A DNA stretch of 64,000 nt from contig NZ_CP082249.1 in NCBI RefSeq assembly GCF_019879105.1, positions 620,001 to 684,000 on the forward strand, in the 5' to 3' direction. The notes beneath the pieces were generated by a model. That model saw only the letters and a program-made list of their open reading frames with translations, was not told the origin of the DNA and searched no databases. Below are positions 32,914 to 58,279 of the stretch, one piece after another; position 1 is the first letter of the stretch; each line of letters opens with the position of its first letter. The position numbers were made by a program, and so were the translations under genes. Source of the DNA: Natrinema sp. SYSU A 869 (GTDB lineage Archaea; Halobacteriota; Halobacteria; Halobacteriales; Natrialbaceae).

Positions 32914-32971
32914 ACCCCAAAACTGGGACCATAGACTGCATCCGCGATCGGAGTAGGCTTCTTACTCAGAT

Positions 32972-33496: not shown

Positions 33497-33602
33497 ACTA
33501 TCAGTAATATAACCTCATCACTTTCAATACAACGTTCTGAATATCGTATAGCCTGATAGAATCATCAGTGGTCAGTACGCAGACGCACTTGCTGTGTCGA
33601 GA

Positions 33603-35208: not shown

Positions 35209-35672
35209 TAGTCCATACCCTCCTCGATCGCAAACCACGTCCCATCGTTTGGATTTCGTTGGATTTGATCGCCCTCGAGCGCGTCGAGGTGTGTCGTCAC
35301 ACGGTCCGGGGCTGTCTCTCGGACGTGACTCACAATCGACTCGAACTCAACACCTGTCGGACTCTTGGCGGTCACAAATTCGTGCACCGTCTCGCGCTCG
35401 CGGTCGGCTAACCGTTCGCGGGCCTTCTCGAGTTGCTGCCGGCACTCATCGCGCTCTCGTTTCAATTCTCGACGCTGTTCGCGAAGTTCTTCGACTGTCT
35501 CATCCTGTTGGTTTACGATTTCGAACCCGCGCTCGGTCTTCATGCCGGCCTCGACCATTGCCTGAATAAATTCAGAAATTGACATATCTAGCTCACCTGC
35601 TCGCGATTTCCAGCGATCGTATTGCTCCGACGTCGGGTAGGACTTGGCTGTGGATTGCTCATTCCCCGCCAT
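35208..35672 (-). CDS. Integrase accessory protein with helix-coil-winged-helix layout (Orf3-like)
   Basis: A 154-residue protein, first of the integrase operon. The N-terminal 45 residues look like a small DNA-binding helical fold (SEQYDRWKSRAGELDMSISE), the middle is a coiled coil (ETVEELREQRRELKRERDEC...), and the C-terminus is a winged helix (VEFESIVSHVRETAPDRVTT with wing GTWFAIEEGM). It probably acts as a directionality or regulatory factor for the integrase. It is coupled to the next gene by TAATG. Confidence 0.72.
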   Translation of the reverse strand: MAGNEQSTAKSYPTSEQYDRWKSRAGELDMSISEFIQAMVEAGMKTERGFEIVNQQDETVEELREQRRELKRERDECRQQLEKARERLADRERETVHEFVTAKSPTGVEFESIVSHVRETAPDRVTTHLDALEGDQIQRNPNDGTWFAIEEGMD

Positions 35673-35903
35673 GTGAGCCCATACCAGAGTGTAGAATGTA
35701 AGTTTACTTCACAGCAAAGCAGGATTTCAGGACCGAGAGAAACTCAGTACGTCGGTCCAGTTCTAGTAAAGATTTCGAGAAGAAGAGTGAGGAGATCGCT
35801 GATAGGACCGAGAAGATTCGAAAGGTAACAACAAAGAGGCAACTTATCGGTAGGCATCGTTTCGTAGAAAGTGATATTACGTTGGGCTATCACGTAGTTA
35901 GCA

Positions 35904-36251
35904 ATGTTGAATATCCTCGTGAAATCGTTCGTCAGAGGGGTATACAAGTCCGCTGGACTGGATTCACCTTATTCTCAGAAATCCTACGGAGCCAACTGGA
36001 CGAAACAGCAGAACAAGTGCTTAGAACGCGATTCACACCAATGCCGGATCTGTGGAAAGACCCGAGATGAGATCGGCCGTGAGCCGGCGGTTCATCACAT
36101 CACCCCACGGAGTCAGTTCGACGATAGCGAGTGGCGAGTCTATAACGATCTTTCGAATCTAATCACGCTATGCCATTCGTGCCACGGCAGGTATGAGGGT
36201 GAATTCACCGATGCATCACCAGAAGAATTTGTCGCCAGAGCAAAACAGTAA
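35904..36251 (+). CDS. HNH endonuclease
   Basis: A 115-residue protein with one zinc-binding HNH domain: CRICGKTRDEIGREPAVHHI, then NLSNLITLCHSCHGRYEG (first line spelled here as read: DLSNLITLCHSCHGRYEG). The Cys-x2-Cys pairs and the HHI dyad are intact. The leading 40 residues are basic and may bind DNA. The local DNA is AT-rich compared with the host. Such enzymes occur in plasmids and viruses as nicking or homing nucleases. A start at ATG 35904 is the only ATG near the expected end of the domain. Confidence 0.8.
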   Translation: MLNILVKSFVRGVYKSAGLDSPYSQKSYGANWTKQQNKCLERDSHQCRICGKTRDEIGREPAVHHITPRSQFDDSEWRVYNDLSNLITLCHSCHGRYEGEFTDASPEEFVARAKQ

Positions 36252-36284
36252 AGTACCTGACTGATAAGAATTGGATGATTTCAC

Positions 36285-36578
36285 ATGGCATCAATATACG
36301 ATGTTCCTGTTAAGTGCAGCTCGTGCAGTGGTGTTGTCGAAGTTGAACCGCCGACGAACCGACGAAAGTACGCCGTAGCTGGCGCGCTGATAGTCGGTCT
36401 CATCGGCTTCTTTATTGGTCTCTCGATTGGTGTCGCAACGGCTGGCCTTGGAATGGCTGCGTTCCCGTTCACCGCCCTCATCGGACTATACATTGGCTAC
36501 CGCATCGGCGGTTGGAGTGCAAAGAAGAAGAACGGAATCCCGTGTCCGGAGTGCGATAGCCATATTATGGGTATCTGA
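36285..36578 (+). CDS. Membrane hairpin protein inside a split zinc ribbon
   Basis: A 97-residue protein. Cys-x2-Cys at the start (VKCSSCSGVV) and Cys-x2-Cys at the end (IPCPECDSHI) would form one zinc ribbon, and between them lie two hydrophobic helices with glycine-rich faces (VAGALIVGLIGFFIGLSIGV and a second). The insertion of a membrane hairpin into a zinc ribbon is a notable layout. It starts 33 bp after the HNH gene on the same strand and may be co-transcribed. No function is known to me. Confidence 0.7.
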   Translation: MASIYDVPVKCSSCSGVVEVEPPTNRRKYAVAGALIVGLIGFFIGLSIGVATAGLGMAAFPFTALIGLYIGYRIGGWSAKKKNGIPCPECDSHIMGI

Positions 36579-36705
36579 CCAGTCTACTAATACGTCACCA
36601 ACCCGATTTGGAGTGATAGAAGCGTTGTTCGTGAGCCGAGTAACGATGCAGTCCCAAAATGTGTGGCCGTCGCGTTCATCCGTGTCGTGTTTATAACTCC
36701 AGTTA

Positions 36706-37154
36706 ATGGGAATGAGGGAACGAGACGAATCAGTCGATGTTCTGCTGATAGAATCCGATCCAGAGGACGCTAATCGGATTACAGAGGCGTTTGCGCAGAC
36801 GTATCCAGAGGCCACGACCCACGTTGTCGGAGACAAGGAGGATGCAGTCGAATTTATCCACCGACACGGTGAGCACGCGGACGCACCACCGCCGAATCTC
36901 ATCCTGCTCGATCTCCACCTCCCAGAGGAGGACGCTATAGAGCTTCTGAGGACGCTCAAGGGCGATCCGAAATTACGCCGCCAACCAGTCCTCGTACTGG
37001 TCGCAGAGGACACCGAGGAAGTCGCTGAACGGACCTACGATCTCAGCGCTAACGCCTATATACCAAAGCCCGATGATCCAGACCAGTACGACAGATTGTC
37101 AACGCGATCGCAGATTTCTGGTTTATGACCGCTCGTTTACCACCGGAACCATAG
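36706..37154 (+). pseudogene. Single-domain response regulator, frameshifted near the end
   Basis: A receiver domain from ATG 36706: VDVLLIESDPEDANRITEAF, the phospho-acceptor in NLILLDLHLPEEDA, PVLVLVAEDTEE and the Lys in NAYIPKPDDPDQYD. As written the protein ends in a nonsense tail at 37128. One extra G in attgtc near 37097 restores RLVNAIADFWFMTARLPPEP and a stop at 37152-37154, the usual ending of haloarchaeal orphan regulators. No kinase is present in the element; it might be phosphorylated by a host kinase. Confidence 0.72.
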
Positions 37155-37209
37155 CTATTCGATAGTCAAAGGATGTCTGGACGGGGTTCGAAGGCCGCGG
37201 CCCTGTCTG

Positions 37210-37449
37210 TCAGGAACAGGACCACGCGATCGCGCTCGGATCGCTCGAGCGAACGCCGTCACGGAACAGTGCGAGCGTCGCTTGCTCGGTCGCGCCGAGG
37301 ACCACGTCGTCGCCACGCCAGCGAGCGCGGCAGCGCCGCGAGCAGAACGTCGCCCACTCCGTCGCCGCCGCCCCGAAGCCGGTCGACCGGTGGCCGCGGA
37401 CGCCGTCGCCGACGTGGTCGTGGCGGCCCTGCGCGACGATGAGCCCCAT
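37210..37449 (-). CDS. Possible small protein in a GC-rich block
   Basis: A 79-residue frame from ATG 37449 with an extreme G/C third-position bias, unlike the other five frames, which makes coding plausible. It contains FCSRRCRARW, a Cys-x3-Cys half zinc site, but no second cysteine pair. The frame is open further upstream without a start. The block 37155-37540 is much richer in GC than its surroundings, so it may have been acquired separately. I cannot name it. Confidence 0.35.
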   Translation of the reverse strand: MGLIVAQGRHDHVGDGVRGHRSTGFGAAATEWATFCSRRCRARWRGDDVVLGATEQATLALFRDGVRSSDPSAIAWSCS

Positions 37450-37652
37450 CTCGACCCACAGCGACGGACCACGCGCGCCGACGGGACGGTCCTGCTCGAG
37501 TATCCACCCGCCGCGCCGTGGTGAAACTGAATTGGGCGATTCGGTAACTACAGATGCTTATTCCTCGGAGTAGTGGCGGGCGTGACTGACGAATGAAAAC
37601 CCTCCCGTGAAAGACAAACAAATAAACGCGGCCGGGACGTACTTCTTAGGTA

Positions 37653-38327
37653 ATGACTATCACTGCGGAGGTTCACCTTCGTTCGTCTTTGCTGCCGCTC
37701 GTCAGCGTCGCCGAATTGGAACAGGTTGACGAAATACAGTGCCCACACGTACTCGGATTAGAACAGGGCCTCCAACTGTTCGTCGTTGAGATCGACTCTA
37801 CTGAAACCCTCGCTGAAGAGGACCTCTTAGAACTTGACGAAGTTATCGAAGCGACCGAACTCGGAAGTGCAAGGGGAAAGGAGGTGTTCAAATTGGAGGC
37901 CGTACTTAGAGAGTCGGTCGCAGAAGCGTTCGAGGACACTCCCGATGCAGGGCTTGTTGATGCGATACAAATCACACCCCAGGGCTGGTACGAGCAGAAA
38001 GTCTTCAAAGACTATCCTGCGTTCAATACGTTCCAGACCAGCTGTGAGGAACATGGCATTTCAGTCGAGATCGTCTCGATTACACACGACTCCTCACCAT
38101 CTGAGGAATCGGCACCGTACGGATTGACGGAGCGGCAATACGAGGCGCTGTCACTCGCGCTGTCTCGGGGCTATTACGAGCGGCCACGCCAGACGACGGC
38201 GGAAGAGCTCGCAGACGAGTTGGGTGTTTCTCAACCCTCGTTATCGGACCTCATTGGCCGCGCCGAGCGCCAACTCGTCACCGCGACACTGGGAACCTCT
38301 CCCCGTCTGGAGATGCTTTCGCAGTAG
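37653..38327 (+). CDS. Bat-type HTH_10 regulator of the cargo
   Basis: A 224-residue regulator with an N-terminal sensor-like region (VHLRSSLLPLVSVAELEQVD ...) and a C-terminal HTH_10: LTERQYEALSLALSRGYYER, then TAEELADELGVSQPSLSDLI. A TATA-like aacaaataaacg about 30 bp before the ATG fits a nearly leaderless transcript. It is the only regulator beside the cupin, dehydrogenase and alcohol dehydrogenase genes, whose promoters share a motif, so it is the prime candidate for controlling them. Confidence 0.85.
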   Translation: MTITAEVHLRSSLLPLVSVAELEQVDEIQCPHVLGLEQGLQLFVVEIDSTETLAEEDLLELDEVIEATELGSARGKEVFKLEAVLRESVAEAFEDTPDAGLVDAIQITPQGWYEQKVFKDYPAFNTFQTSCEEHGISVEIVSITHDSSPSEESAPYGLTERQYEALSLALSRGYYERPRQTTAEELADELGVSQPSLSDLIGRAERQLVTATLGTSPRLEMLSQ

Positions 38328-38455
38328 CGAGCTACTAACACCAGCGGTTCAGAGGACGATCCCTTTACAAATCATAAAGAGCCAGAATTCTTTCTTGAAC
38401 ACCTCATGAGTTCCGTCGTTAGCGCCGACTCACAGGAGGGGTCAGACGATAGGGG

Positions 38456-38857
38456 TTACTCGCTATCCGTGTACTCGTCGTCGGTAACGTGTTCCATCCA
38501 GGAGACGGCTTCTCCGTCCAGTTGCTCCTGAATAGCGATGTGCGTCATGGCCTTCTCCGGTCGTGCGCCGTGCCAGTGCTTCTCTCCCGGCGGGAACCAG
38601 ACGACATCACCTGCACGGACTTGCTTGATCGGGCCGTCCTCGCGCTGGACGAGCCCACATCCGCTCGTGATAACGAGCCGCTGTCCCAGCGGGTGCGTGT
38701 GCCACGCGGTACGCGCGCTGGGCTCGAACGTCACGCTCGCCGCGGTCGCGCGGGCCTCATCTTCCGGATCGAATAAGGGGTCGATTCGAACGTCACCGGT
38801 GAAGTACTCTTCAGGCCCTTCAGTTGACGGTTGCGAGCAGCCATTTGTAATCTCCAT
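38456..38857 (-). CDS. Cupin protein of the cargo
   Basis: A 133-residue single-domain cupin with motif 1 [20 protein letters not shown] and motif 2 [20 protein letters not shown]; the histidines and Gln/Glu would bind a metal. The pattern GEKHWHGA resembles the cupin group near (R)-mandelonitrile lyases and carboxymuconolactone-type proteins. It is transcribed away from the dehydrogenases but its promoter has the same motif, so it belongs to the same set. Substrate unknown. Confidence 0.83.
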
Positions 38858-38894
38858 CTGTAATTCTCATCCCGATTTGGCCTTCATACCACTT

Positions 38895-38928
38895 GGATTC
38901 GATGCTATCTGGAAAGCGCATTTAAATG
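38895..38928 (-). promoter_or_regulatory. Shared cargo promoter motif, copy 1 (cupin)
   Basis: On the minus strand it reads CATTTAAATGCGCTTTCC followed by AGATAGCATCGAATCC. TTTAAA is 64 bp before the cupin ATG. It aligns base by base with the motifs at 39038 and 39948. Confidence 0.6.
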
Positions 38929-39037
38929 CTGCTGTGATCCAAGTGTAGCAGTGAGGAGTTGGCGTTCACCGCGACGAAAGAGACTCGTTATAGAGGGATA
39001 AGGGATTGGCATCTCCTCTCGCGTTCGATTTGTGGGG

Positions 39038-39070
39038 TATTTAAACACCCTTTCACGATAGTACCAATCT
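39038..39070 (+). promoter_or_regulatory. Shared cargo promoter motif, copy 2 (first dehydrogenase)
   Basis: TATTTAAACACCCTTTCACG followed by ATAGTACCAATCT. TTTAAA serves as TATA box; the CACCCTTTC part lies between it and the expected transcript start. The ATG follows at 39100. Confidence 0.65.
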
Positions 39071-39099
39071 CATTGCCACTGGGGGCTTCGTAGCAATTG

Positions 39100-39864
39100 A
39101 TGACAGCAGATCCCGATTCTGAACTTGATGGACAGGTGGCTATCGTGACTGGCGCATCCTCCGGGATTGGGGAGGCCACATCCAAGGCCCTCGCCTCACG
39201 GGGGGCGAGCGTCGTTCTCGCTGCCCGCCGCGAGAATGAACTCGAAGCGCTCGCCGATCAAATCGAATCGGCAGGAGGAGATGCACTCTCGGTGCCGACT
39301 GATATCACGGATGAAGACGGCATCGACGCGCTCGTCGAAGCGACTCTGGCGGAATTCGGCTCGGTCGACGTACTCGTGAACAATGCTGGTGTGATGCTGC
39401 TCGAACCCGTCGAACGGGCCAACCGTGAGAATTTCCGGCAGATGGTCGAAGTCAATCTACTGGGGTTAATGAACCTCACCCACGCCGTGCTCCCGGTGAT
39501 GCAGGAACAGGGCGCTGGCCACATCGTCAACGTCTCTTCGACGGCCGGTCGGGACGCGAACGCGAACAGCTCGGGCTACAGCGCGACGAAGTTCGGTGTT
39601 AACGCCTTCACCGAATCCCTCCGTCAGGAAGTCACCACCGAGGGAATCCGAACGACGATCATCGAACCCGGTGCAGTCGAAACCGAACTCCAAGAACACA
39701 TCCCTGACGAAGAAATCAGAGAACAGATCGAAGACGGCTTTCTCGATTCGATCACACCGCTCCAGAGCGAGGACATCGCACGTGCGATTGCGTACGCCGT
39801 AACCCAGCCGCAGCACGTCAGTGTTAATGAGATGCTCATCCGGCCAACCGATCAACAGCTCTGA
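39100..39864 (+). CDS. Short-chain dehydrogenase/reductase
   Basis: A 254-residue classical SDR. Cofactor loop VTGASSGIGEATSKALASRG, NNAGV at about residue 90, catalytic Ser in VNVSSTAGRDA, Tyr and Lys in SGYSATKFGVNAF, and the PG motif IIEPGAVETEL. The Arg pair after the second strand (AARRENELEAL) favours NADP(H). ATG 39100 is preferred over a TTG at 39097. It is followed by the alcohol dehydrogenase with its own copy of the shared promoter motif. Confidence 0.87.
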   Translation: MTADPDSELDGQVAIVTGASSGIGEATSKALASRGASVVLAARRENELEALADQIESAGGDALSVPTDITDEDGIDALVEATLAEFGSVDVLVNNAGVMLLEPVERANRENFRQMVEVNLLGLMNLTHAVLPVMQEQGAGHIVNVSSTAGRDANANSSGYSATKFGVNAFTESLRQEVTTEGIRTTIIEPGAVETELQEHIPDEEIREQIEDGFLDSITPLQSEDIARAIAYAVTQPQHVSVNEMLIRPTDQQL

Positions 39865-39947
39865 CGATACCCGCCACTCGTGCGGTCCACACAGGCGGTG
39901 ATTCCTCAAACGCTTTCGTCGGGAATCCTTGGCCCTGCCCCCGGCTG

Positions 39948-39981
39948 TACTTAAACACCCTTTCGGTATAGCATTGAATCT
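39948..39981 (+). promoter_or_regulatory. Shared cargo promoter motif, copy 3 (alcohol dehydrogenase)
   Basis: TACTTAAACACCCTTTCGG followed by TATAGCATTGAATCT. Fourteen consecutive bases, TTAAACACCCTTTC, are identical to the copy at 39041-39054. The ATG follows at 40019. Confidence 0.65.
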
Positions 39982-40018
39982 ATGAGATACAGGCCCCGAG
40001 TTGAAACTGAATCAAACT

Positions 40019-41062
40019 ATGAAGGCAGCAACCTACCGAGGGCCAGGTGACGTCCGTATTGAAGAGCATCCCACCCCCGAAGTAGAGGAGCCGACAGACG
40101 CAGTCATCCGCATTACGCACACCGCGATCTGCGGGTCGGACCTCTGGTTCTACCGGGGGCAAGAAGACTACGAAGAAGGCTCGCCTGTCGGCCACGAACC
40201 GATGGGCATCGTCGAAGAAATCGGCGACGACGTCAGTCACGTCGAACCGGGCGACCGTGTGTTCGCTGGGTTCGCTATCAGCTGCGGCGAGTGCGAGTTC
40301 TGCCGCAAGGGACTCCACACCGCATGCAAAACCGGCGGGTTCTGGGACGGCCCAGGTGTCGGCGGCGCACAGGCAGAGAAACTTCGTGTTCCGCATGCCA
40401 ACGGCACGCTCGTTCGCGTCCCAGACCGGTACGCAGACGACGAAGACGCGCTCGAAGCGCTCCTCCCACTGACGGACGTGATGGGAACTGGCCATCACGC
40501 CGCCGTCTGCGCGGACGTCGAGGCCGGTGATACCGCCGTCGTCATCGGTGACGGTGCAGTCGGACTCTGTGCTGTCCTCGCCTCGAAACGCCTCGGAGCG
40601 GAGCGCATCATCGCGGTCGGCCACCACGAAGATCGTCTCGAACTCGCCGAGGAGCTTGGCGCGACAGAGACTGTCTCCAGTCGCGGCGAAGAGGCAATTG
40701 AGGAGATTCAGGAGATCACATACGGTGGCGCTAACCACGTCCTCGAATGCGTCGGTGCGGAATCGTCACTGGAGACGGCCACGCAGGTAGTCCGGCCCGG
40801 TGGCAATATCGGGTATGTCGGCGTTCCACACGTTGAGAGTCCCGACTTCGTCGAGCAGTTATTCTTCCAGAACGCCTCGTTCACCGGCGGTCCAGCACCC
40901 ACTCGGGCGTACGCTGAGGAACTTATGCAGGACGTTCTCCAAGGGACCCTCGATCCGTCGCCGATCTTCACGAAAACCGTTGATCTCGACGGTGTTCCCC
41001 AGGGATACGAGGCGATGGACGAACGCGAGGCAGTGAAGGTCATGGTGAAACTCGATGCGTGA
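40019..41062 (+). CDS. Zinc-dependent alcohol dehydrogenase (MDR family)
   Basis: A 347-residue medium-chain dehydrogenase. Catalytic zinc ligands are in TAICGSDLWFYRG and VGHEPMGIV; the structural-zinc lobe has four cysteines in CGECEFCRKGLHTAC; the nucleotide fold shows VVIGDGAVGLCAVLASKRLG. The TGGFWDGPGVGG segment and length match the Tdh-like group often called zinc-dependent alcohol dehydrogenase in haloarchaea. It lies between two SDR genes; a pathway for an alcohol, ketone or sugar derivative is likely but not defined. Confidence 0.88.
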   Translation: MKAATYRGPGDVRIEEHPTPEVEEPTDAVIRITHTAICGSDLWFYRGQEDYEEGSPVGHEPMGIVEEIGDDVSHVEPGDRVFAGFAISCGECEFCRKGLHTACKTGGFWDGPGVGGAQAEKLRVPHANGTLVRVPDRYADDEDALEALLPLTDVMGTGHHAAVCADVEAGDTAVVIGDGAVGLCAVLASKRLGAERIIAVGHHEDRLELAEELGATETVSSRGEEAIEEIQEITYGGANHVLECVGAESSLETATQVVRPGGNIGYVGVPHVESPDFVEQLFFQNASFTGGPAPTRAYAEELMQDVLQGTLDPSPIFTKTVDLDGVPQGYEAMDEREAVKVMVKLDA

Positions 41063-41118
41063 CACACCGATGCGCCGGCAGCGAACAAATCACTTAGCAA
41101 ACCAGATTGGAGCAACCA

Positions 41119-41907
41119 ATGTCGAGTAACAGGGATCTACCGAAGCCACAGAGCGAGTACTGGAACTTTGAGAATACGGTCGCGTTTGTCACCGGAGCGG
41201 CAAGCGGCATCGGCCGTGCGACAGCACTAGCGTTCGCACGAGAAGGTGCTAATGTCGTCGTTGCTGATATTGACGAGAACGGAAACCAGGAAACGGCAGA
41301 ACAGATTGAGGAACTCGGTGGTGACGCGCTTGCCGTCACGTGCGATGTGCGGGAATCAGAAGATGTGCAGGCGGCACTTGAGGAGACTATTGAGGAGTTC
41401 GGATGTCTTGACTTCGCCTGCAACAACGCCGGTGTCGAACAGCAGGGCGGGAACGTAGCGGACCTGGCCGAGGCCGAATGGGACCGCGTTGTCGACACCG
41501 ACCTGCGTGGTGTCTTTCTGTCCATGAAGTACGAGATCCCGCTGATCCTCGAGCAGGGCGGTGCGATCGTGAACATTTCCTCAGGAGCTGGAGTCAAGGG
41601 ATTCCCTGGAGCCGCATACTGCGCTGCGAAACATGGCGTCGTCGGCTTGACGAAGTCGGCAGCGCTTGAATATGCCGACACAGACCTTCGTATTAATGCC
41701 GTATGTCCCGGTGTCATCGACACGGCGATGATGGACCGCGTCACCGGCAACACCGAAGAAGGCCGCCAGCAAATGATCGATTCGGAGCCGATCGGACGGA
41801 TGGGCGAGCCCGAAGAGATCGCAAACGCCGTTCTCTGGCTGTGCTCGGATGCTGCCTCCTTCACCCTCGGCCATGCGATGGTCGTGGATGGCGGTCAGAC
41901 TGTGTAA
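41119..41907 (+). CDS. Short-chain dehydrogenase/reductase
   Basis: A 262-residue SDR from ATG 41119. It shows VTGAASGIGRATALAFAREG, the Asp that selects NAD(H) in VVVADIDENG, CNNAGVEQQGG, catalytic Ser in VNISSGAGVKG, Tyr and Lys in AAYCAAKHGVVGL, and the FabG-like end SFTLGHAMVVDGGQTV. It follows the alcohol dehydrogenase by 56 bp with no separate shared motif, so it is probably read from that promoter. Specificity is unknown. Confidence 0.88.
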   Translation: MSSNRDLPKPQSEYWNFENTVAFVTGAASGIGRATALAFAREGANVVVADIDENGNQETAEQIEELGGDALAVTCDVRESEDVQAALEETIEEFGCLDFACNNAGVEQQGGNVADLAEAEWDRVVDTDLRGVFLSMKYEIPLILEQGGAIVNISSGAGVKGFPGAAYCAAKHGVVGLTKSAALEYADTDLRINAVCPGVIDTAMMDRVTGNTEEGRQQMIDSEPIGRMGEPEEIANAVLWLCSDAASFTLGHAMVVDGGQTV

Positions 41908-42052
41908 TGGATGGCCCTCATCAGCAGTGCTACTGCTGTGAGGTAAACCACCTGTACTGACCGCGAGTTACACGCCTAACTCTGAATAAAGAAACCGTAC
42001 TACCAACTACTGTAAACGAAAGAAAGAGCGAGCACGAGAGCGACTGAGAGCG

Positions 42053-42857
42053 CTATACGAGTCTTGGATCGCTCGGTGTCTCGTCGAGCACTGGCTCGAG
42101 GTCGGCGACCTCGCAGCCGAGCGTCCGGGCGGCCTGTCGCTTGAGCGCGGCAGCGTGGTCCGGTAGCCGGCTCTCGAGGGTTTGGGCCTTGGCGAGCGTC
42201 GTCCGGACCTCGTGGGCCTCCGCTTGCTCGAGCGACGCGAGCGCGTCGGTCACGTCGTCGGTGTCGGGATCGCTGTTGGTGTCAGCGTCGTCGGCCGGAA
42301 CGCCGCCCGTCTCGACGTTCTGGACGAGCGCGTCGGGCTCGCCATCTTCCGGCTGGAGTTGCATCGCGAGTTGGTCGACCGACAGCGACGACGGGTCGGG
42401 GACACCGGTCGCCGCGACCGCGGGCTCGAGCACGTCGCGGACCGCCGAGAGCGTCGATTTGTCGACGGAAACTGGATTCTCGTGCGATTTCGCGTCGATG
42501 AGTAGCTGATACTGCTGTTCTGTGAGTCGGAGAGAGTCGTCTTAACCAGCGCGCCGCGAGGTCCGCCGCGCCGGCCAGCGTTTCCACCTGCCGCAGATAC
42601 TCGGTCCGATCGACGAGGTCGACGCCGTCGTCGTCGTCGGCGACGATCACCACGTCGTCGCGGTCGATCTCGAGCGACTCGACGACCGCCGCCGCATATC
42701 GGATCCAGTCTTCGCGGTCGAACGCCGCGATTCCGTCCGGATTGATCGTCTCGATCAGGGCTCGCTGGAGCGTCGTGTCCAGAGGCGCGTCCTCGATCGC
42801 CGGCCCGTCGATCGTCGGCCGATCCGGCGCGACGCGGTCGCGGTCCTCGTCACCCAT
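42053..42857 (-). pseudogene. Element hypothetical protein, apparent frameshift
   Basis: The 5' part from ATG 42857 reads MGDEDRDRVAPDRPTIDGPA ... YLRQVETLAGAADLAARWL. The 3' part in another frame reads LRLTEQQYQLLIDAKSHENP ... and ends DLEPVLDETPSDPRLV. The switch occurs at ttaagac (plus 42538-42546); removing one A there joins WL to DDSLRLTEQQ. Both parts have good coding bias and the 3' part has no start of its own. The protein is acidic and helical with no known domain. It is the last gene of the minus-strand replication-module chain. Confidence 0.6.
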
Positions 42858-43029
42858 CGGACTCACCTCCGTCATCGGCGTGGCGGTCGGCGAGGTGGTG
42901 CCGTCGGTACGAGCGACACAGGAGCGCCCGGTTCTCGGGATCGGCGTGCCAGAGTCGGTGGGCCACGTCGTCGCTGCCGTCGCCAGCGGCCTCGCCAGCG
43001 TGATCCGAGGCCAGAGTCCGTTTAGTCAT
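42850..43029 (-). CDS. 59-residue element protein
   Basis: From ATG 43029: MTKRTLASDHAGEAAGDGSD ... RHHLADRHADDGGESDG. It overlaps its upstream neighbour by 8 nt (ATGACTAA) and its downstream neighbour by 8 nt (ATGGGTGA), a strong sign of a real, coupled gene. It is histidine- and aspartate-rich in the second half. No known family. Confidence 0.65.
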   Translation of the reverse strand: MTKRTLASDHAGEAAGDGSDDVAHRLWHADPENRALLCRSYRRHHLADRHADDGGESDG

Positions 43030-43237
43030 CGGCTACCACTCCCCGATCGCTCGAGCGGCCACTCAGTGGCCTCTGTGCCGATCCGATATAGTCGGCCCGG
43101 CGCGTTCGGTCCGCGCCAGCGCCGGCCGCGAGATCGGCCGCCCGCCGACACGACAGACACCCCGCGACGCGATCCTCGTCGTCACCGAAGACGCGAGCGA
43201 AGCGGTCCGAGACGTGAGCGCCGCACTCGTTACACAT
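43022..43237 (-). CDS. Zinc-finger element protein
   Basis: A 71-residue protein, MCNECGAHVSDRFARVFGDD, with Cys-x2-Cys (CNEC) and a second Cys-x2-Cys (GCLSCRRAAD), a typical small zinc ribbon. The start at 43237 gives the same 8-nt overlap (ATGTGTAA) seen at other joints of this operon; ATG 43243 and 43264 are alternatives. It probably binds nucleic acid, but this is inferred from the motif only. Confidence 0.68.
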   Translation of the reverse strand: MCNECGAHVSDRFARVFGDDEDRVAGCLSCRRAADLAAGAGADRTRRADYIGSAQRPLSGRSSDRGVVADD

Positions 43238-43442
43238 CGGCATTGTCGCCTCCGTCCGCGTCATCGACGACGCGCAGGATCGTCACGAACTCCGTGTCGT
43301 CGACCGTCTCGAGGTCATACTCGTCGCCGGATCCAAAGGACGCGGCGGTATGGTGCGTGATCGTCACCGACCAGTTCGGGCTGTCGTCCCCCTCGAGATC
43401 GGCGATCCGCTCCGCGAGGTCGCGTTTGCGGCGTCGCGTCAT
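43230..43442 (-). CDS. Small basic-start element protein, paralogue B
   Basis: A 70-residue protein beginning MTRRRKRDLAERIADLEGDD and ending in an acidic tail. It is a tandem paralogue of the next gene upstream: the first 18 residues match at nearly every position. The start overlaps the upstream stop by 4 nt (ATGA). The middle WSVTITHHTAASFGSGDEYD looks like a beta-rich segment. Unknown family. Confidence 0.68.
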   Translation of the reverse strand: MTRRRKRDLAERIADLEGDDSPNWSVTITHHTAASFGSGDEYDLETVDDTEFVTILRVVDDADGGDNADV

Positions 43443-43621
43443 TGATCGTCCTCCGTGACCGTCAGATCGAGGCCGCAGATTCCGCTTGTCGACCACGCCG
43501 GCGGCTCGCTGTCCGCGTCGCCGTCGAGTAGCGGGACATAGATCCGGACCGCGTCATCAGTGCCACGGCGTTCGAGGTCGCGGATTCGCTCGCGGAGGTC
43601 GCGCTTGCGACGACGGCTCAT
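43439..43621 (-). CDS. Small basic-start element protein, paralogue A
   Basis: A 60-residue protein beginning MSRRRKRDLRERIRDLERRG and then VRIYVPLLDGDADSEPPAWS, ending GLDLTVTEDDQ. It overlaps both neighbours by ATGA. Its N-terminal basic helix is shared with paralogue B, the C-terminal strands differ, suggesting a common partner or nucleic acid contact with different second functions. Confidence 0.68.
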   Translation of the reverse strand: MSRRRKRDLRERIRDLERRGTDDAVRIYVPLLDGDADSEPPAWSTSGICGLDLTVTEDDQ

Positions 43622-44070
43622 TGACGGCCCTCCGTCCGCTCGAGGTCGGCGACGCGTTGCTCGAGTTCGCGGAGATCCTGCTGCTCGTCGATCCATTCAT
43701 TCCACGATTCCAGAGCGCGGACGGCGTCGCGGTATTCTTCTTGCTCGAGCAGCCCCGTAATAGATTTCTGATAGACAGCCGACGACGCAAGCGATCGACG
43801 CGAGCCCAATGTCTCGTCGATATGATCGGCGAGCGCGTCCAGATCCCGCGAAATAGTCGACTGGTTTACGTCGTAGCGTTCGGCCATCTCCGTCTGGTTA
43901 ATGAGTGACGGGTGCCCCCGTGCATAAATCTCGTCGAGCAGGTCGGCGCGTCGTTGCGGCCAACTAAACGAGGACGGGTCCGCGACCGGAATCTCCAGAT
44001 CGCTATAGTCGGGCTCGCTATGCTTGGATATGCCCGTCTCGTCCTCCGAGTCCGTGCTTGAGCGCGTCAT
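43618..44070 (-). CDS. HTH protein of the element
   Basis: A 150-residue protein. A helix-turn-helix is visible in NQTEMAERYDVNQSTISRDL, preceded by PQRRADLLDEIYARGHPSLI and followed by a helical region and a C-terminal coiled segment (LRELEQRVADLERTE). It resembles the small HTH proteins found next to replication genes of haloarchaeal plasmids and viruses, likely a repressor or copy-control factor. It overlaps both neighbours by 4 nt. Confidence 0.72.
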   Translation of the reverse strand: MTRSSTDSEDETGISKHSEPDYSDLEIPVADPSSFSWPQRRADLLDEIYARGHPSLINQTEMAERYDVNQSTISRDLDALADHIDETLGSRRSLASSAVYQKSITGLLEQEEYRDAVRALESWNEWIDEQQDLRELEQRVADLERTEGRQ

Positions 44071-44243
44071 CCGCAGCCACCTCGGCCGCCGTCCTCGTTC
44101 TCGTCGGTCGCGGTCGTCGGCCTGGCGTCACGACAGCGCTGCAACGTCCTCGCGTAGTTGCGAACTTCACCTTCGATCGACTCGGGAACCAGCACAACCT
44201 TCGCGTCCTCGGGTTCGGATTCGCGTTCGTTTGTCGGCAACAT
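44067..44243 (-). CDS. 58-residue element protein
   Basis: From ATG 44243: MLPTNERESEPEDAKVVLVP ... ESIEGEVRNYARTLQRCRDA, ending GGRGGCG. It overlaps the HTH gene by ATGA. An upstream in-frame ATG at 44300 would add 19 residues and is less likely. No known family; it may be the first gene of a small operon since a TATA-like CTTATACC (minus, about 44315) lies upstream. Confidence 0.55.
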   Translation of the reverse strand: MLPTNERESEPEDAKVVLVPESIEGEVRNYARTLQRCRDARPTTATDENEDGGRGGCG

Positions 44244-44371
44244 AGTAGAGAGCAGATCAGTCGCAGCGGGTCTTACCCGAATATGCAACCGCTCGAACAT
44301 AAGTCCCTTGGTATAAGAGTTTGTATCACGGAATTTCTTGCCAACCGTCGCGTGTCACCTCGAGCGCGTTG

Positions 44372-46039
44372 TCACGGCTGGATTTCCTGCGATCCGGTCG
44401 TCGCCGCCTTCATGTCGGTCGCCCAATACCATGCGGCTTCGCGAATCTTGCTCGGCGTCACGCTCGTCCCCACCGCCGCCGCCGTCGGCTCGCCGTCCGT
44501 GATCGGTGCTGATCCGCGAGCACGGTAGGCATTCGCGATCGCTTTCACGTCGTCCGCGTCCGTCCACGCCGCCGCCACGATCGACTCCGCGCCCTCCGAC
44601 AGATACGCACATGGCGGACAGCCCGCATCGTCCGGCCCATCGTCGCGCCAATACCAGCGCGGCTCGTCGCTCGCGTCCGCGTCATCCAGCGCGATCGGCG
44701 CGAGGTCGAGTTGCTGGCCCCGCTCTCGCGTTTCCCACCAATATCGGCAGAGTTCGTGTTTCGACGGCAAGTCCGCCGGCTCGTGGCCGAAGATCGCGAT
44801 ATGTCCGTGCGGTAGTCCCTTCCGCGTCGGCTCCGGCGCGGTTACCGACGCCGGCATTCCGCTCTCGAGGTGCCGCCCGAGCTTCTTCCGCAGGTTCTTC
44901 GCGTCATCCAGCAGCCCGTCCGCCGCCGCCGCTATGCTGTCGAATCGCTCCGGGTCCGTCGTTACCGACAGCACCGTTCCGCGATCGTACCCGGCCGCTG
45001 CCGCACCGCTGAATGCGTCCGCGATCCGTGACGGTCCTCCCCGTGCTCGGCCGCCGTCGATGAACCGCGTCCGATCCCCTCCGCCAAGTGCCTCGTAGCC
45101 ACGCTTCTTTGCTCCGAACGATCCGATCAGATCGCCCCACTGTTCGGCCGTCTCGAGCTTTGCACGCCGTGAAATCGTCGCTTCCGCCTTCTCTTTCGCG
45201 TCCGTCGCGCTCTCCGCACCGGCCCGCGGACGGTTATGCCTACTTACGGTATCAAGAACGGTCGGATCGAGAAACGCCCACAGCAAATCCGACGCCGCCG
45301 TGCGGTTTCCGTCTCGGTCCGATTGGCGCTGTTGATCTTGGATCTCGGTCACGTCCACCCAAGACCACCGGTCACACTGCCGTCGAACCCACTTCCAATT
45401 CTTCTCTCCGTGTCCCGCCGCGGAGCGGAATAGCGTTCGAGCGAGCCAGCCGATCGGCGCTCCGTCCCCCGACTTCGGATCGCGCAGGAGCGCCTCGAGC
45501 CGCTCCGTGTCATCGCCCTCTGTCCGCGGTTGCGTGCCAGTACTACCGGTACCGTGACTCCGTCCGGACTGCTGATATGCTGCCTTAAAGAACTCGTGGC
45601 AATCGGCGACCGGCTCGGCCCACATATCAGCGAGCAGCGGCCGGTCGGAAACCTGAGCAGCATAGAGATCCGAGAGCAGCGGCCGGTCGGAAACCTGAGC
45701 AGCATAGAGATCCGAGAGCAGCGGCCAATCACTCAGCCGGTCGTCGAGCGTCGCGTAGTGAGCTACGTCGGCGAATGCGTCGGGTTCATCCCACTGCTTG
45801 GCGAGCAAGTGCGATCGTTTCTCGCGGAGAGCATCCACGCCGTCGTCGTCGTCGGCGGAAACAGTTCCGTGGTCCCGCAGTCCGTCGACCGCCCACTGCG
45901 TCCCGCAGCGACGGCACCGCGTTCGTTTCGTGTCGATCTCGACGATCCAGTAGGCCTCGCACTCCGGACAACCGACCAACCCGAGACGATTCGATGTGTG
46001 AGCAGCAGATTCAAGAGTACAGCGCTCCTTACTACTCAC
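44372..46039 (-). CDS. rep: HUH rolling-circle replication initiator with zinc-ribbon N-terminus
   Basis: A 555-residue protein from GTG 46039, whose first bases overlap the preceding stop (GTGAGTAG). The N-terminus has a zinc ribbon, CPECEAYWIVE and CRRCGTQWAVDG. The relaxase-like part shows motif I LSVTTDPERFDSI, motif II LPHGHIAIFG with the His-x-His metal site, and a tyrosine region KIREAAWYWATDM, matching rolling-circle Rep proteins of haloarchaeal plasmids and pleolipoviruses. A 14-residue repeat (SDRPLLSDLYAAQV) occurs twice in a row at about 115-145. ATG 46135 is in frame but would overlap the small upstream gene completely. Confidence 0.78.
   Translation of the reverse strand: MSSKERCTLESAAHTSNRLGLVGCPECEAYWIVEIDTKRTRCRRCGTQWAVDGLRDHGTVSADDDDGVDALREKRSHLLAKQWDEPDAFADVAHYATLDDRLSDWPLLSDLYAAQVSDRPLLSDLYAAQVSDRPLLADMWAEPVADCHEFFKAAYQQSGRSHGTGSTGTQPRTEGDDTERLEALLRDPKSGDGAPIGWLARTLFRSAAGHGEKNWKWVRRQCDRWSWVDVTEIQDQQRQSDRDGNRTAASDLLWAFLDPTVLDTVSRHNRPRAGAESATDAKEKAEATISRRAKLETAEQWGDLIGSFGAKKRGYEALGGGDRTRFIDGGRARGGPSRIADAFSGAAAAGYDRGTVLSVTTDPERFDSIAAAADGLLDDAKNLRKKLGRHLESGMPASVTAPEPTRKGLPHGHIAIFGHEPADLPSKHELCRYWWETRERGQQLDLAPIALDDADASDEPRWYWRDDGPDDAGCPPCAYLSEGAESIVAAAWTDADDVKAIANAYRARGSAPITDGEPTAAAVGTSVTPSKIREAAWYWATDMKAATTGSQEIQP
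45635..45718 (-). repeat. 42-bp tandem repeat within rep
   Basis: Two perfect 42-bp copies lie side by side (45635-45676, 45677-45718), with the first bases of a third. The unit is a multiple of three and encodes SDRPLLSDLYAAQV. It probably arose by slippage. Confidence 0.85.
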
Positions 46040-46139
46040 GACGACCACTTCCTTTGATCGGGCAGTCCTCGTCGTCACCATCCAATTCATCGCGGTGATC
46101 GCGGGTGTTGGGCCACCCGCGGTCGGCTTTCGCACTCAT
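46032..46139 (-). CDS. 35-residue leader gene upstream of rep
   Basis: ATG 46139 to TAG 46032-46034: MSAKADRGWPNTRDHRDELD ... ending KGSGRRE. Its stop overlaps the rep GTG by 8 nt, the same overlap length seen at four other joints in the element, which argues for real translation and coupling. A TATA-like element lies about 33-42 bp upstream. Function unknown; it could set the level of Rep. Confidence 0.5.
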   Translation of the reverse strand: MSAKADRGWPNTRDHRDELDGDDEDCPIKGSGRRE

Positions 46140-46171
46140 ATCGCTCAGCGACGAGTGCGCACTTGTCGCTT

Positions 46172-46202
46172 AAATTTCTGTCGGGTGTTTGTTTATATAA
46201 AA
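46172..46202. promoter_or_regulatory. Divergent promoter pair at the right end of the element
   Basis: On the minus strand AAATTTAAGC (about 46171-46180) stands before the small gene and rep. On the plus strand gtttatataaaa (46191-46202) stands about 30 bp before ATG 46229, which reads into the 3' part of btpA. Both have the spacing of haloarchaeal core promoters. Confidence 0.6.
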
Positions 46203-46228
46203 CCATCCGTCCGAGAGGGAGAGTCCTT

Positions 46229-46816
46229 ATGATCGGTCGCTCGCGGACCGGTCAGCATGGGACTAGTTTGTCGTCTCTCCGAAACGACGCCCAGGCCGCG
46301 ATGTCGATCGCCGCGGCCGCCGACGCCGAGTTCATCCGCGTCAACGTCCACGTCGGCACTGCGGCGACCGATCAGGGACTCATCGAGGGCCAGGCCCACG
46401 AGACGCTCCGGCTTCGTGATCGGATCGGAGCTGACGTCGCGATTCTCGCGGACGTCCACGTCAAGCACGCGACGCCGATCGGCGAACGGGAGATCGAGCG
46501 TGCGGCCCTCGAGACGGTCAAGCGGGGAAAAGCCGACGGCGTCATCGTTTCCGGACACGGGACGGGCGTCGAAACGTCGCTCGCGGACGTCGAGTGCGTC
46601 ACCGACGCACTCGCCGATCAGGGACATGATGAGACACCGGTGTTCGTCGGCAGCGGCGTAACGAGCGAGACGGTCGGCGACTGTCTTGAGGCGGGAGCAA
46701 CGGGTGTCATCGTCGGTACGGCACTCAAAACGGACGGCGTAACGACGAACCCCATCTCGGAAACGCGGGTCGAAGAAGTTGTGACCGCGGCTCGAGCGGC
46801 GAGCTCGAGCGACTGA
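46229..46816 (+). pseudogene. btpA: btpA, 3' part with start supplied by the element
   Basis: From CTCCGAAAC onward the frame encodes the rest of BtpA: NDAQAAMSIAAAADAEFIRV, HVGTAATDQGLIEGQAHETL, VAILADVHVKHATPIGERE, DGVIVSGHGTG and the phosphate-binding end VFVGSGVTSE then ATGVIVGTALKTDGVTTNP. An ATG at 46229 inside the element is in frame and has a TATA box about 30 bp upstream, so a 195-residue product starting MIGRSRTGQHGTSLSS could be made. The N-terminal strands of the barrel would be missing. Excision would recreate the 279-residue protein. Confidence 0.82.
46277..46285 (+). other. Right attachment core of the integrative element
   Basis: Exact copy of CTCCGAAAC at 32902-32910. To its right the btpA frame continues with Asp-Ala-Gln. 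To its left is element DNA including TAGTTT (46264-46269), which pairs with AAACTA at 32907-32912 when the ends are joined. Confidence 0.8.
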
Positions 46817-52687: not shown

Positions 52688-54198
52688 TCAGTAGACTGCG
52701 TCTTTGATCTCCTCGCGGAGTTCGTCGAACTGCTCGAGGTAGTCACGGCGTTCGGCGCGTAGTTCCGCGAGTGCGTCGTCGTAGTCGTCGACGTGGTCAG
52801 GCACGTAGTAGTCGTTGATGTCGAGTCCCGGGACGGATTCGGGAATCGTTAGATCCATCTGCTCGTCGCGGGTCCACTCGATGGTCCCGCGGGCGGCTTC
52901 CGTCAGGATCATCACGGACTCGGTGACGCCGATGTCTTTCGACTGCTCACCGATATAGCCCGTGTTGATGACGTAACAGTCGACCTCGAGGAGGTCGATG
53001 AGTTCGTGGAAGATATTCCCTCCTCGCCCTCCGGACCGATGATGAAGGGGTTCGTTCCGACGACGCGGATCGACTCGCCTGCTCGTGACGGGTCGCCAGC
53101 GCTGGTCTCGATCGACTCGCCGAGCATGAAGGCGACGGCGGCCTGCTCCTCGTCGAGTTTGGCGACCGGTGGCATCAGCGGGTTTCGGGTGATGAAGAAG
53201 ACCTGATCCATCCGGTCTAAGTCGATCTCCTCGTCCGCGCTCTCGAGTTGGTCGCGCTGGACGATGGCCCGGGAGTTCGACGTATAGCGGTCCTCATCGA
53301 AGTGGACAGTGCCGTCGTCGTCGACCGCGACGTTCTCGAGGATCGCCGATTCAGCGGTCGCGGTCTCGTAGAGCTCCGGCTGCTCGTCCTTACTGAGGCC
53401 GATCGTCTTGATGAACAGTCCCTCACCCTCGCTGCCGGCGACGGTGCCGTCAGAGAGGAGACCGCAGACATCGTCTTGCAACATGGTGGCGTCTTCGGGT
53501 TCCTCGAGCCAGCAGCCGTGAGAGGTCAGCGTGGATTTGCCGGTCGCGGAGAGGCCCATGAACACCTGGCCGACGGTCTGTAGCTCGTCGTCATCGTCAC
53601 GGACGCGGACCCGCTTGCTCCCTGCGTGGAGTCCGAGGCCGCCCTGCTGCTTGATCCGATACATGTACAGCCGGAGGAACGACTTCTTGGCTTCGCCAAT
53701 GTAATCCGTGCCGAGTATGGTCGTCACACCGGTATCGGGAAGGACTCGAATCTCGGTTTCGTCGTAATCGGGCAGGTGGACGGTGTAGAGATCGGGGTCC
53801 TGCCCGTCAGCTGGCTCGAACAGACTCGCCCACGCATAGGCGATTCGAGCGTGCTCGACGGGGACGAACAAGCGACAGCAGAAGGCAGCATCTGGATGAC
53901 GGCCCATCAGTCGATCGACGCAGAGCATCTCACGGTCGCTCGTGAGATCGATTGCGTCGTCGACGAGTTCGTGATCGTGGTCGGTGAACTCGTCGTCGAC
54001 GGCGTTTTTCGTCCGATCGGCACTCCGCGAGCGGACCTCACTGACGTACGACGCCGATCCGAACTCAGTCGTCGTCTCGTCGGGCTCGGCGAGTTTGCGC
54101 AGTTCCTCGAGCGACGGATCATACCGGACGTTCGACGCTGTGGTTGGATCCGGAAGCTGTCGGACCAGCGGACGGGACTCCGTCCCGGTTTCAGACAT
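52688..54198 (-). CDS. pckA: Phosphoenolpyruvate carboxykinase (ATP), frameshift in the sequence
   Basis: From ATG 54198, about 502 residues after correction. It converts oxaloacetate and ATP to PEP for gluconeogenesis. Motifs: Walker A FMGLSATGKSTLTSHG, DDVCGLLSDG, FIKTIGLSKDEQPE and FFITRNPLMPPVAKL. The frame breaks after PEGEEG at plus 53018-53020 (ccc); one more G on the coding strand gives NIFHELIDLLEVDCYVINTG and joins the C-terminus MILTEAARGTIEWTRDEQMD in the other frame, ending KDAVY. Loss of an important enzyme by one base is improbable, so I read this as a sequence error. A TATA-like CGTTTATC (minus, about 54222-54229) predicts a very short leader. Confidence 0.88.
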
Positions 54199-54555
54199 AT
54201 ACGTAACACACCACTGTCCTGACTGATAAACGTAGAGGATTATGATCGCTGTGTGGTACGACTTCCCAGCTATGCAAGAATATATGGCATTTCGAACCCT
54301 ATATCGGGTATGAGTGGCAGTTCCACTCTCGCCAGAAAATAGTCTGGTATCGGAGAAGTCTAAACAAGTACTCGGGTAAGAAATAATTTTAATCGGCCGT
54401 AGATATCGAGGGTACGGGCACGATCGTGATCGGAACTCGGCGCACTCGTCGGTGGGCCAGCCATGGAGTGAACCCGAGTCGTCGATACCGGGCTGATTTT
54501 CACATCTGGTACTGTGGGGCAAACCTCCAATAGGATCGTTCGAATTACCGAGGGC
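54199..54555. other. Divergent intergenic region between pckA and the actin-like gene
   Basis: About 357 bp with no convincing gene. It contains the pckA core promoter near 54222-54232, an AT-rich stretch at 54362-54397 (aagaaataattttaatc) that may be a promoter for another transcript, and caataggat near 54529 that could serve the actin-like gene. No tRNA or repeat seen. Confidence 0.4.
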
Positions 54556-57500
54556 ATGGATTACGGTCTCGACATCGGACCGGGGGAAATCCGGGCCATC
54601 ACTGACGCAGGCGACGGTCCGACGATCGAATCGGTGCCGCCGGTCGTTGTACCGGTCGACGACGCCGCGCTCAGCACAGGGGACTCTCGGAGCCGGGGGC
54701 AACGATCGACGTAGACGACGCGACGTACGCAGTCGGCACGAACGCTCGAGCGGCCGCCAACGCCGCGGACGGGGGACCGAAGTCCCTGTTCGCGAACGGC
54801 GTTCTCGCAACGGACGCGACGGCGTACGCATTGCCCGCGTTAGATATGCTTATCGACGACGTCGTGGATGACGCGACGGCCGGCCGGCTCTGTTATACGA
54901 CGCCGGGACCGCTCGTCGACAAGACAGCGCCGACCGACGCACACCGCGAGGCCGTCGAGTCGATTCTAGCTGACCGCGGACTCGACGCAACGCCGATCAG
55001 CACGGGATTCGCCGTCGTCTATGACCAACTGGCGGCCGACAACTACACTGGGCTCGGCATCTGCCTCAGGGCACAGACGACGAGTGTCACGCTCGCGTAC
55101 TACGGCGTTCCGGCGATGGCCGTCTCACTCGCCAAAGGGCGCGAGTGGATCATCGAGCGTGCGGCCGGCGAAACCGGTCGCGAACCGGCACGGGTCGCCG
55201 ACGTCCTCGAGGCGTTCACGCTCGACCCCGACGCGGCGGCAGGTGGGATCGAGAGCGCTATCGCGCAGGCCTACGACGCCCTGATAGCCGAGGTGATCGA
55301 GGCGATCCGAGATGCGGCCGACGAGAGCGACATCCAGCAGGGGGTATCCGTTCCGATCGCGGTCGCCGGTGAGGCCGCGCTCGAGGGCGTCGAATTCCTC
55401 ATCGGCGGCCGATTCGATGCAGCGACGCTTCCGTTCTCGGTTCGCGGCGTTCGACTTGCGGACGACCCCGCTGCGAGCGCCGCTCGAGGCGCGCTCGCGG
55501 CGGCCCGGGACGACGTCGAGGCCTACGAGGCAGTCACCTGGTCCGCCTCCGTCACTCCCGGTGAGGACACTGACGACTCCTCAAGTGCGGACGAGGCGTC
55601 CGCGATGAGCGGGGCGACCGAACTCGCGTTCGACGACGGGGAAGCGCCACCCGGAGACACCCAGCGAACCGACGACGCCATCGATCAGTTGTTCGATCGA
55701 CTCGCGAACCGCGACGCCGAGATCGAGTCCGTCCGCGAGGATCTCGAGGTCCTGTTCGACGATCTCGAGTATATCGAGGAGCGAACGGCTGCGGCCGAAA
55801 CTGTCGACGAACTCGACGATCGCCTCGAGTCGTTTGCCGACGATCTGACTGATCTCGAGGATGAAAGCGGGACGCACGCGAGCGACGACGACGTGACTGA
55901 TCTCGAGGACGACCTCGAGACCGTCGATGATGAACTCGAGGCGTTGTCGGACGCGCTCGCGGCGGTAGCGGACGACGTCGGCGATCTCGACGATGATCTC
56001 GAGGCCCTCGACGACGACCTCGCCGCGGTCGAAACGACTGCGGCCGACGAGCGAGCGGGCCTCGACGAACGGGTTATTGAGCTGGCGGCCGACCTCGAGA
56101 CGGTCGCCGATCGGACAGAGACGGTCGACGAAGATCTCGTCGCCGTCCAGGCCGACCTGGATGAGCTCGAAACGACCGCCGCGAGCGAAGCGGCGCTCGA
56201 GGCGGTCGAGGGACGGGTCTCGGGACTGACCGACAAACTCGAGGCCCTCGAGGCGGACGTCGATCGCGCCGGAACGCGAATCGAGGGCGTTGCGGGACGG
56301 CTCGAGGAACTGAGCACACGGATCGACGGCGTGTCGGGGCGACTCGAAGAGCACTCCGAACGGACCGATGCGCGCTTCGAGACCGTCGAATCGACGCTCG
56401 ACGAGGAGTTCGCGGCCGTCGACGACGAGCTAGATGCCGTCCGCGGAACGGTGGACGACCGCACCGCAGCGCTCGATACCGGTCTCGAGGCCGTTCAGGA
56501 CTCGATCGACGACCTCGAGGCGGCGACGACGGACGACGAACGAGTTGACGCCATCGCGGACGATCTGTCGACCCTCGAGACGGCGGTCGACGACCTCGGA
56601 GAGACGATTTCGGACGTGACGGAAACGCTCGACGACCTCGAAACGCGGGCCGCCAGTCGAGAGACGGTCGAGGGGCTCGCGGCTGATCTCGAGACAACTG
56701 ATGAGGACCTCGAAACGCTCGACTCGGAGCTCCAGTCGCTCGAGGATGCGATCGACCGGCGAATCGACGACACGGTCTCGACCCTCGAAGCCCGGATCGC
56801 GGACGCAACGGACGGGATCGACGAGGATCTCACAGCGCTCGAGAACACCGTCGAGCGGCTCGATGACGAAACGGTGCCAGAGGATGACGTCGCTCAGTTG
56901 CGCGACTCCCTCGCTAACACGACCGCCGAGATCGATGCGGTGACTGCGGACACCGATGCCATCGCGACGGATCTCGCGGCCGTCGAGGACCGGATCGACG
57001 ATCTCGACACCGAACTCGAGGACCGAGTGGACGAGGTTCGGGCGAGTCTCGAAGCGCAGGTGAGCGACGTTCGAACGACGGTCACCGATCGAGTGGACGA
57101 CGTAGAGGCGACGGTCGACGATCGGGTGGACGAGGTTCGGACAGCACTCGAGGACGACGTCGCGGCGCTTCGGACCACCCTCGAGGACGAGACCGAGTCG
57201 CTCGCCGAGACGCTCTCGGAGAGAGACGATCGAATCGCCGACACCGAAGAGCGATTGGACACCCACGAAACCCGTTTCGAGGACCTCTCGTCGACACTCG
57301 AGGGGCTCGACTCCGAGATCGACGGCGTCAGCTCGGACCTCGCGACGCTCGCAGATCGAGTCGATGACACTGCCGACACGGCCGCGACTGACGAGGATGT
57401 CGCGGCGCTCGCGGATGACATCTCGTCGGTCGCCGACCGCCTCGAGTCACTCCGTTCGGATCACGACGACCTCACTCGAGCCGTCGAGTCGGGGCCTGAC

Positions 57501-57926
57501 GAATCGGCGGTAACGGAACTCGACGGTGATCTGCAGGCACTCGATGGTGATGTCCGAGCGCTCGACGACGACGTACAGTTGCTCGACGGCGAACTCGACT
57601 CGTTCGGTGAACAGGTGGCGACGGTTTCTGAACAACTCTCGGGGCTCGAAGAGCGGTCCGAGTCGATTGAGACGCGGATTGAGGATGTCGAGACTCGGAC
57701 GAGCCACTCCGAGGAGATCGAGGCGCTTCGAGCGGACCTCGAGGACGTTCGAGCCGAGACGACCGCATCACCGACGCTTTCGTCCGCAATCGTCGCCGGC
57801 GGTGGGGGCGCAGGAGTCGTCGCCGGTAGCGTCACCGCGCTTGCGGGCGAGACGACGATCGGTGGCGGTGCAGTTGTCGTCGGACTCGTGCTGATTGGGG
57901 TTGCAATGTTGCTCGCTCGGACGTGA
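54556..57926 (+). CDS. Actin-like N-terminal domain fused to a long coiled coil and membrane anchor
   Basis: About 1123 residues after correcting one indel. Residues 1-330 look like an actin/Hsp70-type ATPase: MDYGLDIGPGEIRAITDAG (phosphate-1 loop), LCYTTPGPLVDKTAPTDA, then GLGICLRAQTTSVTLAYYGV (phosphate-2-like). After an acidic linker a heptad-patterned coiled coil of about 650 residues follows, built of units such as DDLETVDDELEALSDALAAV. The end, SAIVAGGGGAGVVAGSVTAL then GGGAVVVGLVLIGVAMLLAR, forms two membrane helices. The frame breaks in the G4 run at 54679-54682; one more G joins DDAALSTG to LSEPGATIDVDDATYAVGTN. The long uninterrupted frame from 54831 is therefore not the true start. 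A cytoskeletal or membrane-scaffold role is inferred; salactin is a known haloarchaeal actin homologue. Confidence 0.72.
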
Positions 57927-58012: not shown

Positions 58013-58144
58013 CTAGTCCCGGATCAACTCGACGTTTCGCATCTCGCCCCCGCACTGCTGACAGGTGCCGAGGAGTGCGTCCCCGACCGTTTCCCGCCGG
58101 CCACACTGGACGCAGACGTACTCGCGTTGCTCCTCGAGTGTCAT
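58013..58144 (-). CDS. Rubrerythrin-like/zinc-ribbon microprotein
   Basis: A 43-residue protein: MTLEEQREYVCVQCGRRETV ... GTCQQCGGEMRNVELIRD. Two Cys-x2-Cys knuckles (CVQC, CQQC) form a rubredoxin- or ribbon-like zinc site of the group annotated as rubrerythrin-like domain proteins in haloarchaea. A perfect palindrome ATGGTATACCAT (58143-58154) overlaps the start codon. Confidence 0.75.
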   Translation of the reverse strand: MTLEEQREYVCVQCGRRETVGDALLGTCQQCGGEMRNVELIRD

Positions 58145-58279
58145 GGTATACCATACACAACAGAATGTGTTAACTCTTTCCGCAGTACCCTCTCCGGCGA
58201 TTCCGGTGGCAGTAGTGAGGACCCCTTTCGAGACCGAACGCGGGCTCGGTGGCAGGTCGGTGACCGGAACGCGAGCCAG

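Follow-up and report, generated by a model that had tools for sequence, protein, structure and literature searches.

A Natrialbaceae paralogue of volactin with an actin-fold head, a coiled-coil rod and a predicted membrane tail

How filaments of the haloarchaeal cell-shape actin volactin stay at the membrane is an open question: in Haloferax they bind it only by their tips, and the binding factors are unknown (PMC10869688). The gene at 54556–57926 (plus strand) of the 64,000-nucleotide stretch analysed here, the window, encodes an actin-like head, a very long coil and a hydrophobic tail in one chain. We asked what this protein is and what it might do, and the analysis makes it a concrete candidate for such a membrane link in Natrialbaceae.

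In the deposited sequence the gene is split across two frames. It begins with the ATG at 54556 (MDYGLDIGPGEIRA..., opening MDYGLDIGPGEIRAITDAGDG...), and the other frame remains open to the stop codon at 57924–57926. The 5' part (54556–54679) encodes head residues 1–41, including the MDYGLDIGP phosphate-1 region, and aligns to the relatives; the longest mechanical ORF call at the locus starts at a TTG, 54831, and yields 1031 residues. The sequence-only reading had suspected a one-base gap at 54679–54682. A blastn comparison with the nearest relative (locus L039 of genome G052, 87% identical) bears this out, placing one missing base between 54679 and 54680, and the gene-by-gene comparison lists it as a deletion of one base at 54680. 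The gene had also been expected to be intact once this base is restored. In agreement with this, all 20 relatives first fetched read straight through in a single open frame, giving proteins of 862–1295 residues from the matching start; in total, more than 20 relatives carry an intact gene. A programmed frameshift was rejected, since the relatives have one open frame.

We looked for further frame breaks in a gene-by-gene comparison of the window and its syntenic region in G052. Single-base deletions lie inside otherwise well-conserved genes at 25675, 53017, 63190 and 63380, which suggests an unpolished assembly, and one missing base likewise cuts the genome's canonical volactin, which lies 75 kb upstream. 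Because similar deletions affect these other genes and the relatives are intact, the comparison makes an assembly error the most likely source of the break in long volactin. The sequence-only reading had allowed for a truly frameshifted gene, and a recent pseudogene in SYSU A 869 would account for the deleted base and fit the dispensability of long volactin in some relatives. It is nevertheless quite improbable: deletions of the same kind recur across this assembly, the canonical copy is cut too even though volactin appears essential in Haloferax (PMC10869688), and 1031 codons stay open downstream of the break with low omega. Relative to G052, omega is 0.31 for the head and 0.27 for the coil, indicating purifying selection on both.

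The head spans residues 1–325, of which residues 43–325 are encoded at 54681–55529, downstream of the break. Against the Pfam family Volactin (PF25216, gathering cut-off 35 bits), the whole protein scores 373–378 bits (E 5.3e-113); the 5' piece alone reaches 38.1 bits and the other piece 378, both above the cut-off. A profile of the long heads matches canonical volactin with an E value of 7.8e-54 over 326 columns. The head structure was modelled for a relative, Natrinema salsiterrestre (locus L053), with moderate confidence (pLDDT 66.5, pTM 0.55). Foldseek matches this model to MreB (E 2.5e-11), and VIA-align matches it to MamK, BeeR, actin and MreB, with a Z score of 18.6 over 275 residues for MamK (5ljv). 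By family score and by the model, the head is thus assigned to the Volactin family with an actin fold. The proposal of an actin homologue in the sequence-only reading holds, as the modelled head matches MreB and MamK, while the named family is refined to volactin. Salactin was not adopted as the family, a choice made on the Volactin match (E 5e-113). The MamK model NCBIfam NF040964 gives 12.8 bits against a cut-off of 400. Sequence searches of the PDB returned nothing meaningful with the long head and a weak FtsA match (E 0.0038) with canonical volactin.

The nucleotide site was compared in an alignment of 58 long heads, 42 canonical volactins and E. coli MreB. Residue equivalence between long heads and MreB runs through canonical volactin, because hhalign gave no significant direct match between the long profile and a single MreB sequence; the match of canonical volactin to MreB is itself weak (probability 4%, E 0.0097), though the motifs line up. 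Glu152 of canonical volactin aligns with MreB E143, which we take to be the catalytic glutamate. This column holds Glu in all 42 canonical volactins and in none of the 58 long heads, where it is occupied by Lys (21), Arg (19), Thr (12), Ser (3) or Gln (3). A single long head keeps the third Gly of the phosphate-2 loop, which 57 have lost; five keep the phosphate-1 Thr, which 53 have lost; and the adenosine-loop Thr column is gapped in all 58. Nearly all long heads (57–58 of 58) retain the Asp and Gly of phosphate-1 and the last Thr of phosphate-2. The phosphate loops noted earlier are therefore in the right places, but degenerate relative to canonical volactin.

On the losses at Glu152 and in the phosphate-1, phosphate-2 and adenosine loops, the long head is predicted to lack normal ATP hydrolysis, and ATPase function, which the sequence-only reading had predicted, was rejected as the default. 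Motif loss by itself would not settle the activity of the long head, since the aspartate usual in phosphate-2 is missing from canonical volactin as well, where position 172 is Ser.

The head is followed by an acidic linker rich in Ser, Asp and Glu (residues 326–372, 55530–55670) and a coiled-coil rod of about 700 residues (373–1072, 55671–57770), both of which had been proposed and are borne out. In the window coil, Fourier analysis gives a hydrophobic periodicity of 3.39 with a power of 4.17, against a maximum of 1.78 in 1000 shuffles; Asp and Glu make up about 34% of the coil, which is almost free of lysine. At about 0.15 nm per residue, 700 residues would extend roughly 100 nm if the coiled coil is parallel. 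Across the long proteins the coil varies from about 200 to 960 residues, yet coil and tail are retained. Tests for SMC and archaea-specific SMC-related proteins stayed below their cut-offs (98.9 versus 300 bits and 97 versus 567–729 bits), with matches confined to the coil.

The tail contains a glycine-rich hydrophobic segment (AIVAGGGGAGVVAGSVTAL, 57786–57842) and a predicted transmembrane helix (IGGGAVVVGLVLIGVAMLL, 57858–57914, hydropathy 2.56). By hydropathy, 20 of 21 long proteins have two hydrophobic C-terminal segments and all 21 have the last one, and the glycine-rich pattern is conserved in the tails of the 21 named loci. The tail model of L053 shows a 67-residue helix, which forms the last part of the coil, then a low-confidence glycine-rich break, a short helix of low confidence corresponding to the first segment, and a 22-residue helix corresponding to the second. 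Membrane insertion of the tail is predicted from hydropathy and model, and one transmembrane helix is well supported. Two terminal membrane helices had been claimed; this stands for the last segment, whereas the first may be either a second transmembrane helix or a re-entrant one. A tail profile searched outside Natrialbaceae matched only coil.

We searched 391 genomes of the class with a profile of ten long heads. All 76 strong matches (E < 1e-85, open frames 649–1564) lie in Natrialbaceae, corresponding to 76 of 101 genomes of the family as counted from the listed rows, and the search found no long form in the other sampled families. Below these, from 3.5e-75 onwards, most matches are stand-alone volactins, about 340–400 residues long, from Natrialbaceae and other families. 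A scan of named genomes found the long form in Natrinema, Haloterrigena, Natronorubrum, Halopiger, Natrialba, Halobiforma, Natronococcus and Natrarchaeobius, all Natrialbaceae. A volactin-family match is present in 124 of 125 Natrialbaceae genomes. Since every long-bearing genome of the 391-genome search has at least two such matches, the long form appears to coexist with canonical volactin in each of them.

Long forms comprise 575–1313 residues, whereas canonical volactin is a stand-alone protein of about 340. The volactin tree groups the long heads in a single clade (support 100/100), separate from the canonical volactins of Natrialbaceae and other families. Their identity to the first row of the alignment is 56–68%, versus 81–97% for canonical volactin. 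The long form thus belongs by sequence to a known Pfam family while lacking the features of canonical volactin, namely the stand-alone length, a place in the canonical clade and the invariant nucleotide-site residues. On this tree, which has no outgroup and a long branch to the long heads, the long form may be either ancient with losses or a fast recent duplicate. In these comparisons it is a conserved Natrialbaceae paralogue of volactin and not an orphan; the 'unusual' membrane-tethered protein of the sequence-only reading is hence not peculiar to this genome. A plasmid or virus origin was rejected, the only matches being partial ones of 25–41% identity, on four plasmid records of haloarchaea and a single phage record, with coverage below 80% in every case.

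The gene order ribosomal L11, cutA-like, PEPCK-like, long volactin, zinc ribbon, MFS and HAD is conserved; the names of these neighbours are presumptive, being our own reading of the sequence. The divergent PEP carboxykinase-like gene lies upstream on the minus strand (52688–54297, the gene broken at 53017) and the small zinc-ribbon-like gene downstream, also on the minus strand (58016–58195), both conserved between loci. In eight same-genus genomes without long volactin the neighbours stay and the gene is gone, one of these regions being cut by a contig end. Since synteny is kept and the neighbours remain where the gene is absent, long volactin looks vertically inherited and subject to loss. 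Several relatives without the long form keep canonical volactin, and this presence and absence among close relatives provides a built-in natural comparison. In one of the eight, G055, the site holds a transposase remnant, a transposase-like ORF between the PEPCK-like gene and the zinc ribbon (L135:5508–6278).

We propose, with about even confidence and partly by inference, that this Natrialbaceae-specific, membrane-anchored paralogue binds canonical volactin through its head, and that rod and tail tether or nucleate volactin filaments at the membrane. The non-hydrolysing head would attach to the canonical volactin with which it shares the cell, either capping filament ends or copolymerising as a subunit. 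The rod would span as much as about 100 nm of cytoplasm, and the tail would hold the assembly in the membrane. Fold, family score, profile match to canonical volactin, nucleotide-site losses, retained coil and tail, purifying selection, coexistence and synteny are consistent with such a tether, which fits the tip-only membrane contact of Haloferax volactin filaments (PMC10869688). Haloferax lies outside the long-form family, so other haloarchaea must use another anchor, and absence from several canonical-bearing relatives and all other sampled families argues against a general volactin anchor. More tentatively, the two proteins may make up an actin system of two components in Natrialbaceae: the long paralogue, catalytically dead and carrying rod and tail in the same chain, would cap or seed filaments of volactin at the membrane. 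If true, this would be a membrane-anchored actin cap or nucleator made from actin itself.

The long protein could instead work alone, its rods self-associating into a membrane scaffold and its head serving as a folded end domain that makes no contact with volactin. The separate clade on a long branch and the lower conservation of the long heads leave room for changed contact surfaces, but the head keeps the whole actin-like fold under purifying selection and the long form always occurs with canonical volactin, which makes the scaffold unlikely. A head that polymerises in a nucleotide-dependent manner with changed chemistry, forming its own membrane-linked filaments, could draw on the retained phosphate-1 Asp and Gly and last phosphate-2 Thr; it is quite unlikely, given that no long head retains the equivalent of the catalytic Glu, which has mostly become Lys or Arg, and that all but one have lost the third phosphate-2 Gly. 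We consider it very unlikely that the protein anchors other cargo at the membrane, such as chromosomal DNA, signalling arrays or envelope machinery. Broad matches of the coil to coil models, SMC-like ones included, speak for such cargo, as does the role of the haloarchaeal actin salactin in DNA partitioning (PMC10746226), but the SMC hits fall far below curated cut-offs and the neighbouring genes are of housekeeping type, with no DNA or chemotaxis theme.

Among known systems, volactin (VolA, HVO_2015) is closest in sharing family and actin fold over the whole head; it lacks coil and tail and keeps the catalytic Glu that the long form has lost. The bacterial actins MamK and MreB, the best structural matches to the long head, are stand-alone actin domains, and MreB keeps the Glu and GGG loops. 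FtsA, and RodZ with MreB, work in a comparable way, filaments being linked to the membrane by an actin-fold protein or by the partner of one, whereas long volactin would combine a predicted inactive head, a rod and a membrane tail in one chain. Salactin of Halobacterium salinarum, a haloarchaeal actin homologue reported to be MamK-related, forms a dynamic filament growing out of the poles (PMC10746226); its description mentions no coil. The searched literature on volactin, salactin and actin–coil–membrane fusions contained no description of the long form, most subscription papers, preprints and supplements being outside the scope of the search. Automatic annotation may label the long form as plain volactin, an ATPase, a pseudogene or an SMC-like coil.

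Two features were observed near canonical volactin. A different acidic coiled-coil protein (about 520–750 residues, with an N-terminal globular part) is encoded 6–8 kb away in several Natrialbaceae (for example L147:6317–8335 of genome G051; in the SYSU A 869 genome itself, G000:C3:591384–591773). Immediately upstream of canonical volactin lies a gene for a multi-helix membrane protein, kept in both of the genomes inspected (L147:2455–3378, minus strand; L002:204–1124, plus strand). In the window itself, a region of about 13 kb (32830–46270) is probably an integrated element, because its GC content is lower (mostly 0.53–0.60), the syntenic G052 region lacks it, it interrupts the homologue of one G052 gene and it contains a tyrosine-recombinase-like ORF (33603–34736, minus strand).
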